Positions 5,267 through 9,408 of a DNA stretch of 57,058 nt are shown piece after piece. Position numbers and translations under genes: made by a program. Source of the stretch: Asanoa iriomotensis (GTDB taxonomy: Bacteria > Actinomycetota > Actinomycetes > Mycobacteriales > Micromonosporaceae). Below the pieces are notes generated by a model. It was not told the DNA's origin and did not search any database. It saw nothing but the letters and a program-made list of their open reading frames with translations. Location: contig NZ_BONC01000052.1 in NCBI RefSeq assembly GCF_016862515.1, positions 1 to 57,058 of the forward strand. Reading direction: 5' to 3'. How positions within the stretch are numbered: position 1 is the stretch's first letter; the number at the start of each line of letters is the position of its first letter.

Positions 5267-6651
5267 TCAAAATGCGCCTCGACGAGGTCGCGGCCGCGGT
5301 CGGCGGCCGGCTGGCCGGCGCGGACCCGGCGGCCGAGGTGACCGGAGCCGTCGAGTACGACTCCCGCAAGGTCGGACCCGGCGGCCTGTTCGTCGCGTTC
5401 CCCGGCGAAAAGGTCGACGGGCACGACTACGCCGCCGGCGCGGTGGCCGCGGGCGCGACCGCGGTGCTCGGCACCCGCCCGGTCGAGGGCGTGCCGATGG
5501 TGCTCGTCGACGACCCGCTGGCGGCGCTGGCCGGGCTGGCCCGCGCGGTGCTGCCCCAGCTGCCCGACCTGTGCGTGATCGGGCTGACCGGCTCGTCCGG
5601 CAAGACCACGACCAAGGACATGGTCGCCCAGCTCGCCGCCAAGCTCGGCCCGACGGTCGCGCCGCCCGGCTCGCTCAACAACGAGCTGGGCTTCCCATAC
5701 ACCGTGCTCAAGGCCGACGAGCAGACCCGCTACCTGGTGCTCGAGATGGGCGCCCGCGGTGTCGGGCACATCAGCCACCTCGCCGGCATCGCCCGGCCCC
5801 GGGTCGGCGTGGTGCTCAACGTCGGCACCTCGCACATCGGCGAGTTCGGGTCGGTCGACAACATCGCCACGGCCAAGGGCGAGCTGGCGGAGGCCGTACC
5901 CGTGGACGGGGTGGCGATCCTCAACGCCGACGACGAGCGGGTCCGGAAGATGGCCGTGCGTACCCGCGGCCGGGTGGTCCTGGTCGGTGAGGCGCCGGAC
6001 GCCGACGTGCGCGCCGACGACGTGACCGTGGACGCGCACGGCCTGGCCTCCTACACCCTGCGGGTGGCCCGGGGCAGCGTCCCCGTGCGGCTGCGGGTGC
6101 CCGGGCGGCACCAGGTCGGCAACAGCCTCGCCGCCGCCGCGGTGGCCCGGGAGCTGGGCATGCCGCTGCGCGAGCTGGGCGAGGCCCTGGGCGAGGTGGA
6201 GCTGCGCTCGGCCCGCCGGATGGACGTCTTCGAGCGGCCCGACGGGGTCACCGTCATCGACGACTCCTACAACGCCAACCCGGCCTCGATGGCCGCCGCG
6301 CTGCGGGCGCTCGCGGCCATCGGAGCGGGACGGCGTACCGTCGCGGTGCTCGGCTACATGGCCGAGTTGGGTGGGTTCGAACGTTCCGGCCACGAAGAGG
6401 TCGGGCGGCTCGCCGCGGCACTGGGCGTCGACCGGCTGTTCGTGGTCGGCGAGGCGGCCGGTCCGATCCACGACGGCGCGACGGCCCATCCGGGCTGGGA
6501 AGGTAGGTCGGTGGTGCTGGGCGACCAGGAGGCGGCGATCGACGCGCTCCGGGCCGATCTGCGGCCGGGCGACGTCGTGCTGGTGAAGGGTTCCCGGTAC
6601 CGCACCTGGGACGTGGTCGACGCCCTGCGCGAGCGGGAGTCGGCGGCGTGA
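5263..6651 (+). CDS. murF: UDP-MurNAc-tripeptide-D-Ala-D-Ala ligase MurF
   Basis: Mur ligase that adds D-Ala-D-Ala to complete the cytoplasmic UDP-MurNAc-pentapeptide. It has 462 residues, normal for the family. Visible motifs are the ATP-binding loop [13 protein letters not shown], the central [13 protein letters not shown] and [10 protein letters not shown] blocks, and the C-terminal [12 protein letters not shown] signature that sets MurF apart from MurE. The ATG overlaps the murE stop, and its own TGA overlaps the mraY GTG, so murE-murF-mraY form one coupled run. Confidence 0.97.
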
Positions 6652-7781
6652 GGGCGGTCATCGTCGCCATCGCGGTGGCGTTCCTCGTCTCGCTGTTCGG
6701 CACCCCGCTCGCGATCAAGGTGTTCACCCGGCTCAAGGCCGGCCAGCCGATCCGCACCGACGGCCCGCAGATGCACCTGACCAAGAAGGGCACGCCGACG
6801 ATGGGCGGCGTGGTCTTCATCGTGGCCACGATCATCGCGTACGTGGCCGGCCACCTCGCCCTGACCACGCTGCCGTCCCAGCAGATCTTCCAGGTCGGCC
6901 CGACGATCACCGCGCTGGTGCTGCTGGGCCTGCTGGTGTTCTGCGGCGCGGTCGGCTTCATCGACGACTTCCTCAAGGTCCGCCGGCGGCACAGCGGCGG
7001 GCTCAACAAGCGCGGCAAGCTGCTCGGCCAGCTCCTGGTCGGCGCCACCTTCGGCATCGTCGCGCTGTACTTCCCGAGCACCATGCTCGACACCACCGGC
7101 AGCCGGACCAACACCGAGACCGTCGGCAGCACGGCCGTCTCGTTCATCCGCGAGGTGAGCTGGCTCGACATCGGCAAGGTCGGCTCGGTCATCCTCTTCG
7201 TGCTCGTGGTGCTCGCCTCGACCAACGGCGTCAACCTGACCGACGGGCTCGACGGCCTGGCGACCGGGGCGTCGACGATGGTGCTCGCCGCGTACGCGCT
7301 GATCGCGTTCTGGCAGTACCGGCACTGGTGCGCCGACCCGACCTACGTCAAGAGCGCCAGCACCTACTGTTACGCGGTCCGCGACCCGCTCGAGATAGCC
7401 CTGATAGCCGGCGCCGCCGCCGGGGCCTGTGTCGGCTTCCTGTGGTGGAACACCTCGCCGGCGCGGATCTTCATGGGCGACACCGGCGCGCTCGGCCTGG
7501 GCGGCCTGATCGCCGGCATGGCGATGTCGACGCGCACGGTGCTGCTGCTCCCGATCATCGGCGGGCTCTTCGTGATCATCACGATGTCGGTGGTCATCCA
7601 GATCATCTCGTTCCGGACCACGGGCAAACGGGTGTTCCGCATGTCGCCGCTCCAGCACCACTTCGAGCTGGCGGGGTGGAGCGAGGTCAACATCGTGGTC
7701 CGCTTCTGGATCATCGCCGGCATCGGCGTCGCGATGGCCCTGGGCCTCTTCTACAGCGACTTCCTCGCCGCTGTCAGTTAA
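6648..7781 (+). CDS. mraY: Phospho-MurNAc-pentapeptide translocase MraY
   Basis: Integral membrane enzyme that transfers phospho-MurNAc-pentapeptide to undecaprenyl phosphate, forming lipid I. It has 377 residues with about ten hydrophobic segments. Family signatures are [10 protein letters not shown] (catalytic Asp region), [24 protein letters not shown] and the C-terminal [10 protein letters not shown] loop. GTG start, overlapping the murF stop. In related clusters the next gene is murD; here the TAA stop is followed directly by a long inverted repeat and then ftsW. Confidence 0.97.
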
Positions 7782-7945
7782 GGGGGTGGCTCGCGGGTCA
7801 GGGCGGCACGCCGCCGGGCCCAGACGACGACCGACCGCACGCGGAGCCGGGCCGGATACAACACCGGTATCCGACCCATCTCCGCGCACGCCCGGACGCC
7901 GCCTGGACCTCGCCGGCGCACCACCCTGACCCGCGAGCCACCCCC
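7782..7945. repeat. 164-bp imperfect palindrome in the mraY-ftsW gap (MITE-like or structured RNA)
   Basis: The outer 22 bp at 7782-7803 are a perfect inverted match to 7924-7945. The inner arms continue pairing to a 7-bp perfect core (7853-7859 with 7867-7873) around a 7-base loop, so the whole segment is one long hairpin. By hand alignment the left arm of 78 bases has 62 identical pairs, 16 substitutions and one gap. Eleven of 12 transition differences leave a G-U pair in minus-strand RNA, but only one does so in plus-strand RNA. It starts on the base after the mraY stop. No target duplication is visible. It may be a transposon-derived miniature element, a minus-strand structured RNA or a strong terminator. 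No coding is seen in 7782-8010. Confidence 0.85.
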
Positions 7946-8010
7946 CCCAGAACCCGACACGCCGAAAGTTTCTCCGCTGTCCGGGCGCGTCCAGCGTCGA
8001 TGATGGGCCG

Positions 8011-9408
8011 GTGGCCGAGGAAGCGAAAGCGCGTCAGCCGCGCCGCTCGCTGTTCGAGGGCGGCGTGGCCGCCCTGCGCGGCCTGCTCGCCCGCCCGCTG
8101 GCGTCCTACTACCTGCTGATCTCCAGCGCCGGGCTGCTGCTGGTGATCGGCCTGACCATGGTCTTCTCGGCCACGGGCCCGAAGGACATCGCCGCCGACG
8201 GCAACGCGTTCTCCGCCCTTGCCAAGCAGGGCCTGTTCGCCGTCGTCGGGTTGACCGCGTTCTGGGTCTGCCAGCGGCTGCCCGCCCGCACGTTCCGCGC
8301 CCTGGCCCGCCCGCTGCTGGGCATCGCGGTCGCCCTGCTGCTGTTCCTCAACGGGTTGAACGCGCTGGCGGCCATCCGGGGCGTCAAGGAGATCCGGCTC
8401 GGCCCTATCGAGAGCGACGTGCTCTGGTTGCACGTCGGTCCGATCCAGGTGCAGCCGTCCGAGCTGGCCAAGATCGGCCTGATCCTCTGGGCCGCCGACG
8501 TGATCAGCCGCAAGGGCCCGGCGCTGAGCCAGTGGCGCGAGCTGGCCATGCCGCTGTTCCCGGTGGTCGCGCTGCTGTTCGTGCTGGTCGGCTACAAGGA
8601 CCTCGGCACGATGCTGATCCTGCTCGCCATCGTGGTGGGCGTGCTGTGGGCCGCCGGGGTGCGGCTGCGGGTGTTCGCCAGCCTGTCCGTGATCGGCCTC
8701 GCCGGGATCGCCCTGCTGATCGCGGCCGCCTCCACCATGAACTCGGGCGGCGAGGGCGGCAACTACCGGTTCGCCCGGTTGCTCACCTTCTTCAACCCGC
8801 CGGCCGACTGCAAGGAGGCCGGCTGCTACCAGGGCATCCAGGCCCGGTACGCGATCGACAACGGCGGCTGGTTCGGTGTCGGGCTGGGCCAGGGCCGGCT
8901 CAAGTGGAACTGGCTGCCGGAGGCCAACAACGACTTCATCTTCGCGGTGGTCGCCGAGGAGCTGGGCGTCGTCGGCTGCGCGGTGATCCTCGCCCTGTTC
9001 GGCGTGCTCGCGTTCACCGGCCTGCGGATCGCCCGCCGCATCGACGACCCGTTCCGCCGCCTGGTCGCCGCCGCCATCACCACCTGGCTCGTCGCCCAGG
9101 CCCTGATCAACATCGGTGGCGTGGTCGGGCTGATCCCGATCACCGGCCTGCCGCTGCCGTTCATCTCCGACGGCGGCAGCGCCCTGGTGGTGACGCTGGC
9201 CGGCGTCGGCATGCTGGCGTCGTTCGCGCGGGCCGAACCCGACGCGGCCCGAGCCCTGCATGCCCGCCCGCCGGCCCGGTGGGTCCGACTACTCTGGGCC
9301 CCGCTGCCTCCGTTGCCACCGGCTCCGGCGGCCAGCCGCCCGTCGGCGTCCGCCGCCGGGCGCACCGCGCGTGACCGCGCCGGTGTGGGTGGCGAGAGGA
9401 GACGGTGA
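8011..9408 (+). CDS. ftsW: Septal peptidoglycan glycosyltransferase FtsW (SEDS)
   Basis: Polytopic SEDS-family polymerase working with FtsI at the septum. It has 465 residues with about ten membrane segments after a basic N-terminus. Signatures are VQPSELAKIGLILW, GVGLGQGRLKWNWLPEANN with DFIFAVVAEELG following, and PLPFISDGGSALV. The GTG at 8011 has no clear ribosome site, and GATGAT six bases before it could be a weak -10 for a leaderless message. Unlike its neighbours it is separated from the upstream gene by 229 bp, so it needs read-through past the palindrome or its own promoter. The C-terminus is Ala/Pro/Arg-rich and disordered. Confidence 0.95.
   Translation: MAEEAKARQPRRSLFEGGVAALRGLLARPLASYYLLISSAGLLLVIGLTMVFSATGPKDIAADGNAFSALAKQGLFAVVGLTAFWVCQRLPARTFRALARPLLGIAVALLLFLNGLNALAAIRGVKEIRLGPIESDVLWLHVGPIQVQPSELAKIGLILWAADVISRKGPALSQWRELAMPLFPVVALLFVLVGYKDLGTMLILLAIVVGVLWAAGVRLRVFASLSVIGLAGIALLIAAASTMNSGGEGGNYRFARLLTFFNPPADCKEAGCYQGIQARYAIDNGGWFGVGLGQGRLKWNWLPEANNDFIFAVVAEELGVVGCAVILALFGVLAFTGLRIARRIDDPFRRLVAAAITTWLVAQALINIGGVVGLIPITGLPLPFISDGGSALVVTLAGVGMLASFARAEPDAARALHARPPARWVRLLWAPLPPLPPAPAASRPSASAAGRTARDRAGVGGERRR

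Follow-up and report, generated by a model that had tools for sequence, protein, structure and literature searches.

Why does a 164-nt, almost perfect palindrome stand directly behind mraY in the dcw cluster of Asanoa iriomotensis, and why do the differences between its arms leave one strand better able to fold than the other? The window (the whole stretch of 57,058 nucleotides that was analysed, from contig NZ_BONC01000052.1) carries the palindrome at 7782..7945, between plus-strand open reading frames at 6648..7781 and 8011..9408, which we take, following an earlier note on this DNA, to be mraY and an ftsW-like gene. The earlier note had the element starting immediately after the mraY stop codon, and it does begin directly behind that TAA (7779..7781, plus strand), with the TA at 7779-7780 taken as the insertion point. 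The right flank reads CCCA (7946..7949, plus strand), from which the duplicated right-hand TA is absent and has presumably decayed.

Folding recovered one near-complete hairpin, with the coordinates and the fold that the earlier note had given. As RNA, the minus strand folded at -164.4 kcal/mol (z -15.6) and the plus strand at -122.7 (z -11.9), and none of 200 shuffles folded as well on either strand; as DNA, the values were -90.8 kcal/mol for the minus and -69.1 for the plus strand. Hereafter, K denotes the well-folding strand (minus in the window), the mismatches of which are mainly keto-keto (G·T, G·G and T·T), and M its complement. The pairing register, taken from 31 aligned copies, joins K positions 1-35 with 164-130 and 37-79 with 129-87 around a 7-nt loop, leaving A36 (window position 7910) bulged; pairing the arms without this bulge creates false mismatches. 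In this register the 78 pairs of the window copy on the minus strand comprise 63 Watson-Crick pairs, 11 G·U pairs and 4 other mismatches, with no A·C. All 11 transition differences between the arms are thus G·U on the minus strand once one base is bulged, where the earlier note had counted 11 of 12 and about 73 pairable positions of 78; the register accounts for the difference.

The outer arms, which form the terminal inverted repeats (7924..7945, 5' on the folding strand, and 7782..7803, 3'), make 22 perfect pairs and the innermost 7-bp stem is also perfect, as had been claimed. Among copies the outer arms differ chiefly through paired changes, and many of their pairs show changes on both sides. 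An inner core of ~103 nt (7812..7914) is common to subfamilies with different outer arms, as seen in the alignment and in cross-genus BLAST matches, many of which cover element positions 31-133 alone. At the apex, the 7-nt loop CGGTGTT (7860..7866, minus strand) and its closing stem GGATAC/GTATCC are invariant or more than 90% conserved in the 31 copies. A search of window positions 7000-8700 against Rfam 15 yielded no family over threshold, the only match being MIR1858 at 49.8 bits against a gathering score of 137.

The window palindrome belongs to a family of mobile DNA hairpins that occurs in soil actinobacteria, in several families of the order. The earlier note had proposed looking for copies elsewhere in the genome and running a covariance search in relatives, and both returned members. 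The own genome (G000) gave 37 matches to the 164-nt element, with partial and both-strand ones counted and several at contig ends; its contigs C14, C91, C120, C124 and others end within copies, so the copy number is probably underestimated. With the 164-nt element as DNA query, matches were detected in 23 of 61 genomes (own included), among them all six of the genus. A covariance model built from 31 gap-free Asanoa copies (set A1, out of 62 aligned sequences) found members in at least 37 of the 298 genomes examined from the order, and the matches listed were mostly 161-166 nt long; this count is a lower bound, as nine candidates per genome were scored, and the pair-rich model may also take unrelated hairpins. 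Outside the own family, inspection of 29 loci revealed the apical motif clearly in L227, L243, L245, L252 and L253 (16-18 of 19 bases) and partially in L226 (13 of 19); it was not seen in L235 and L248 (9 of 19), nor was the element seen in the stretch of L249 that was viewed. An exact core pattern matched 103 stretches in named genomes, and the 80 listed, each with a 51-base match, all belonged to Micromonosporaceae, i.e., Asanoa, Phytohabitans, Micromonospora, Virgisporangium, Rugosimonospora and an unclassified member. The outer ~30 nt of each arm vary from one subfamily to another, and the inner ~103 nt are common to them. No title or abstract naming this hairpin family was found in the literature searched, most subscription journals lying outside that search.

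Tandem arrangements occur in L083 (G001:C2:1730211-1730542), with three partial matches in a row, and in L263 (G271), with two full copies sharing a CTAG edge. The loci L116, L115, L262, L264, L266 and others carry shorter hairpins (about 52-95 bp) that keep these ends but lack the apical part, as though replication had skipped over the hairpin.

None of the five other Asanoa genomes compared has the element between mraY and ftsW, which shows it to be mobile. The empty site reads GTCAGTTAGGGCTC in two of the five relatives, and the window reads GTCAGTTA, the element, then CCCAGAACCC. A search for empty sites of 121 further copies among the available loci gave six candidates. One was clean (CTA[element]TAG in L126 against CTAG in L142), the reciprocal comparison of L142 with L126 was not, and the other four were tandem copies in L120 and L263, inserted in CTAG at the edge of another copy. 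Among 225 copies, TA was found on both sides together with good outer pairing (at least 11 of 14 outer pairs, in a boundary search that gives a bonus for TA) in 122, on one side in 81, and on neither in 19. Read along K, the targets of these 122 copies were CTAG (n = 71), CTAA (n = 24), TTAG (n = 8), TTAA (n = 5), CTAC (n = 5) and rarer others, and the first base of the element was G in 118 and A in 4. The element thus inserts at CTAG/YTAR and duplicates TA, and its targets are often stop codons, hence its start right after that of mraY; a first base of G or A would re-form a stop codon, TAG or TAA.

We examined the gene context of 174 copies with a crude GC3 gene caller, counting copies that overlap a called gene separately. 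Copies lay within 10 bp of 114 of 210 stop-side gene ends and of 6 of 104 start-side ends, and were far more often between convergent (n = 55) than between divergent genes (n = 10). Such a distribution is what would be seen if the host retained the element after insertion as a terminator or as a stabiliser of mRNA ends, an explanation that we consider highly improbable: the CTAG/YTAR target can by itself account for these places, the strand bias described below has no clear relation to gene direction, and the mraY-ftsW site is empty in every relative. Between tandem genes, no orientation preference relative to the flanking genes was detected (30:26; 35:34 with gene-overlapping copies included), nor in Asanoa alone (8:9; 8:13 with such copies). 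The suggestion in the earlier note of an antisense RNA acting against the dcw operon is likewise not supported: among the six Asanoa genomes compared, only this one has the site filled, and the tandem orientation is even. Its other suggestion, a mobile miniature element with strand-specific structure, is supported by the many copies, the empty site in relatives, the TA duplication and the 204 of 210 copies that favour the same G·U-rich strand. The note had also raised a plain MITE as an alternative; the target duplications make the family MITE-like, but its copies are not identical and it is not a plain MITE.

Through repeated rounds of copying, the K strand is maintained in a foldable state, and its apical loop is conserved. 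Across set A1 (31 copies by 78 pairs), 94.5% of the 2418 cells pair, a signal that is destroyed by sliding the partner, and 28 pairs show two-sided changes against 14.6 in shuffles, none of 500 of which had as many. On K these cells comprise 1950 Watson-Crick, 335 G·U, 1 A·C and 132 others (G·G 85, T·T 21, A·G 21, C·T 3, C·C 1 and A·A 1), so that the G·U bias noticed in the single copy is well beyond chance, and the arm differences of the homologues, a lack of bias in which would have counted against the earlier note, lean to G·U as well. With orientation assigned from the apical loop alone, the K fold was richer in G·U than the M fold in 204 of 210 distinct copies, a set restricted to those that have the apical motif and pair at 10 or more of the 14 outer positions; copies lacking the apical part thus fall outside it. 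By group, K-biased copies were 76 of 78 in Asanoa and a few relatives, 24 of 24 in G035, 62 of 63 in named records, 18 of 18 at other loci, 16 of 18 in the order sample and 8 of 9 in G264.

The same bias was evident between close relatives. Comparison of the 55 closest disjoint copy pairs gave 216 differences, including 83 one-sided changes between Watson-Crick and G·T as against 17 involving A·C, and 22 paired double changes where 2.5 were expected, 17 of them in the outer arms. Changes at A-T pairs went to or from G·T 40 times and A·C 5 times, and those at G-C pairs 43 and 12 times. As A-T pairs are biased too, cytosine-specific damage on one strand was ruled out as the source of G·T. One group of 19 copies around L118 was nearly even (G·T:A·C 11:9). 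From singletons to group consensus, the G·T:A·C ratio rose from 63:28 to 88:12 (p 0.002), which we read as selection on the copied lineage, the bias being weaker in single copies. We used the two-sided consensus count, as the count from K folds alone is one-sided (100 K·K to 2 M·M). Keto-keto against amino-amino mismatches numbered 92:38 in singletons and 52:12 in shared variants, a difference that was not significant (p 0.16). A self-alignment that ignores the bulge gave G·T:A·C of 199:33 in G004, 163:23 in G002, 215:49 in G035 and 63:54 in G264, the last with hardly any bias by this measure and with a fold-based mean of 6.0 G·U on K and 3.3 on M; we preferred the register- and fold-based counts.

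These patterns bear on which molecule folds. If the element were transcribed, by read-through or from an unrecognised promoter, a K-strand hairpin RNA could be needed for its spread, e.g., bound by a protein, and the fork orientation in Asanoa (see below) would be a separate insertion-targeting effect. We hold this to be unlikely, yet it deserves serious weight. The covariation carries strand-specific G·U, though folding of single-stranded DNA could give the same signal; the apical loop is conserved; and the strand bias, unlike the replication bias, is seen in every group. G·U also behaves as a true pair, being gained from G-C (n = 23) and A-U (n = 18) and lost to A-U (n = 21) and G-C (n = 18) alike. 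Among within-group changes at G-C pairs, the preference for G·T rather than A·C was no stronger than that for G·G and G·A rather than C·C and C·T (odds ratio 1.0), as DNA mismatch stability would lead one to expect; this equal treatment of G·G, G·A and G·T suits DNA. The ratio of G·T to G·G, with G·G counted only where it is an isolated 1x1 mismatch, was 88:9 at consensus pairs and 101:32 among within-group variants (p 0.005), so that the consensus is enriched in G·U and its preference leans to RNA. The even orientation of copies relative to flanking genes (30:26) and the lack of an Rfam family above threshold speak against an RNA. Since wobble also fits single-stranded DNA, the folded molecule may be either, with DNA only slightly ahead of RNA.

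To relate orientation to replication, we set the origin at dnaA and assumed the terminus at the opposite point, counting listed copies only; G271, G310 and most of G040 fell outside these counts as dnaA was on another contig. K ran against the fork in 25 of 27 listed copies in G004, 13 of 16 in G002 and 9 of 11 on contig C2 of G001, i.e., 47 of 54 listed copies in the three Asanoa genomes pooled (p 2e-8), and in 43 of 49 when the loop motif alone was used. K is therefore mostly the leading-strand template in these three genomes, and the lagging-strand template carries the poorly folding M. The two exceptions in G004 lie 19 and 61 kb beyond the assumed terminus. Two G001 contigs with no origin had all listed copies in one direction (C4, 6 of 6; C3, 3 of 3), and copy directions were mixed on C28 of G003 and C21 of G000. 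From the copy directions on G001 C2 (flip at 1.04 Mb) we had predicted dnaA at 1.03-1.06 Mb; it was found at 96 kb, leaving two copies as exceptions. Provided that fork and dcw cluster travel in the same direction, as they do in G004 (mraY at 7.32 Mb, minus strand), the window copy obeys the fork rule.

No fork bias was detected outside Asanoa, where the pooled count of K against the fork was 30 of 51 listed copies (p 0.26), made up of G035 20/31, G264 4/10, G221 3/3, G048 2/4, G006 1/2 and G040 0/1. As the strand bias is general and the fork bias is absent outside Asanoa, the link to the fork is not general. The mean energy difference between strands was -20.9 kcal/mol in G002, -17.8 in G004 and -21.5 in G001, compared with -12.3 in G035 and -9.4 in G264, and orientation bias and strand asymmetry thus go together, on few lineages.

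One way to obtain this association involves no folded stage at all: a MITE transposase would need the inverted symmetry, and copies or variants folding well on the lagging-strand template would be lost; in a variant, only mismatches ignored by the mismatch nuclease NucS would be tolerated on the exposed strand. The lagging-strand template in Asanoa is indeed mostly M, the strand with the weaker DNA fold in the window, and strand difference and orientation bias fall together across G002, G004, G035 and G264. Apex-deleted hairpins are common. The actinobacterial NucS prefers G-T, G-G and T-T and hardly cuts A-C (PMC8228993), and the K mismatches of set A1 besides G·T are mostly of NucS types (G·G and T·T, 85 and 21 of 132). 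Avoidance of this kind nevertheless seems improbable. It leaves the strand bias in lineages with no orientation bias unexplained, and close copies in G004 are oriented already (15 of 17). Slow loss of wrongly oriented copies was supported neither by that count nor by the pooled data, in which close copies and others were alike (33 of 47 and 20 of 26, p 0.59). Fork-dependent repair of inserted copies, e.g., by NucS, was not supported either, as copies in the rare orientation had the same kind of new mismatches as the rest (13:8 vs 25:12, p 0.78).

Target orientation was considered as a further cause of the fork bias. In Asanoa and a few relatives, K-oriented targets were CTAA in 15 cases and TTAG in 2, and this could be a partial cause only, given that all five matched G004 copies at the symmetric CTAG were fork-oriented. 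Replication-linked orientation is unusual for such small elements.

The explanation that we favour, tentatively and with somewhat less than even confidence, is that the element is a fold-back transposon, non-autonomous, which passes through a single-stranded hairpin stage specific to one strand, perhaps as DNA at the fork. A fork can orient a near-symmetric element only if the machinery senses the difference between its strands, and from this we infer a single-stranded folded stage. The K strand would become single-stranded and fold into a hairpin, most likely as DNA at the replication fork; the hairpin would be recognised through its stem and loop; and a transposase with a TA target, similar to those of IS5/IS630, may move the element in trans. 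TA-target insertion sequences include the IS5/IS427 and IS630/Tc1-mariner families, and the target and its duplication fit TA-target DDE enzymes. More specifically, a DDE-type TA-target transposase, not a Y1 HUH enzyme, might handle the strand-specific single-stranded DNA hairpin at the fork, with G·T wobble permitting the fold while the duplex stays an imperfect palindrome; this narrower proposal is doubtful.

Besides the lack of a fork bias outside Asanoa and the consensus pairs that lean to RNA, two further results count against a fold-back transposon with a single-stranded stage. Y1 HUH transposase, the known machine for single-stranded DNA hairpins, was present (PF01797) in only 5 of 32 genomes, i.e., G013, G022, G024, G025 and G001 (the last a weak match with a stop), and a pattern scan of 12 genomes found no autonomous partner with exactly the ends of the hairpin. 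The nearest candidate was a TA-flanked IS5-type element in G004, the two ends of which differ from the hairpin ends by 3 and 4 mismatches in 21; the ends of this element obeyed the fork rule in 2 of 4 cases. A pair of 1.5-kb loci in G237 (L255 and L256) have TA-flanked inverted ends, TAGTGCGGTGTCCACTAACGTT and close variants, around an OrfB/TnpB-type frame, that of L255 with a Pfam OrfB_IS605 match; these ends are similar to the arms of one of the hairpin subfamilies of that genome.

That a Y1 HUH transposase mobilises the element in the form of single-stranded DNA, in the manner of IS200/IS605 or REPINs, has been largely refuted and is very improbable. The appeal of this alternative is that REPINs, which are doublets of hairpins, show compensatory changes and have a putative excised hairpin intermediate (PMC3116915), and that the orientation of IS200/IS605 follows replication (PMC5371812). 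The target here is a symmetric YTAR with TA duplicated, and PF01797 is missing from most carriers tested: the carrier G025 has it and G001 the weak match, and it was not found in G000, G002-G005, G028, G035, G040, G264, G271 and G310.

The family thus shares features with several known systems and differs from each. It resembles MITEs of TA-target insertion sequences in its inverted repeats, in the TA duplicated at CTAG-like targets, in its many copies, and in having ends similar to an IS5-type element of the same genus. It is unlike them in being palindromic throughout, with a core and loop common to subfamilies that have different ends, and in having one strand selected to fold and a fork orientation in three Asanoa genomes. 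With REP sequences and REPINs, which are linked to Y1 transposases (RAYTs), it shares the short hairpin, the compensatory arm changes and a possible folded intermediate (PMC3116915); it differs in its length of 164 nt, in the TA duplication, where REPINs and IS200/IS605 are defined by having no target duplication, and in that no Y1 was found in most carriers tested. Tn7 with TnsE, IS200/IS605 and insertion sequences with clamp-binding transposases likewise have an orientation that follows fork direction (PMC5371812). Unlike these, the hairpin family has near-identical inverted repeats at its ends, so that only small differences between the strands could make its orientation recognisable, and its fork orientation is not seen in the other genera tested. 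The family is best placed among the MITEs, with an autonomous partner that is putative, and falls outside REPINs and IS200/IS605.

Palindromic repeats of this small size tend to be regarded as passive MITEs. The strong ongoing one-strand covariation seen here, together with an orientation of the Asanoa copies that is tied to replication and not to transcription, opens to testing the way in which hairpins without genes move and the question whether they use a single-stranded stage. There is also a warning in these data: covariation biased to G·U, the usual sign of a structured RNA, might come from a mobile DNA hairpin.

A minor observation concerns the upstream host gene. In addition to mraY itself, each of five Asanoa genomes contains a region with 78-81% identity to the 3' part of that gene (G004:C1:5297910, G003:C27:191333, G001:C3:1485837, G002:C1:7664700 and G005:C33:49261), which suggests, from sequence similarity, a second mraY-like gene in these five genomes.
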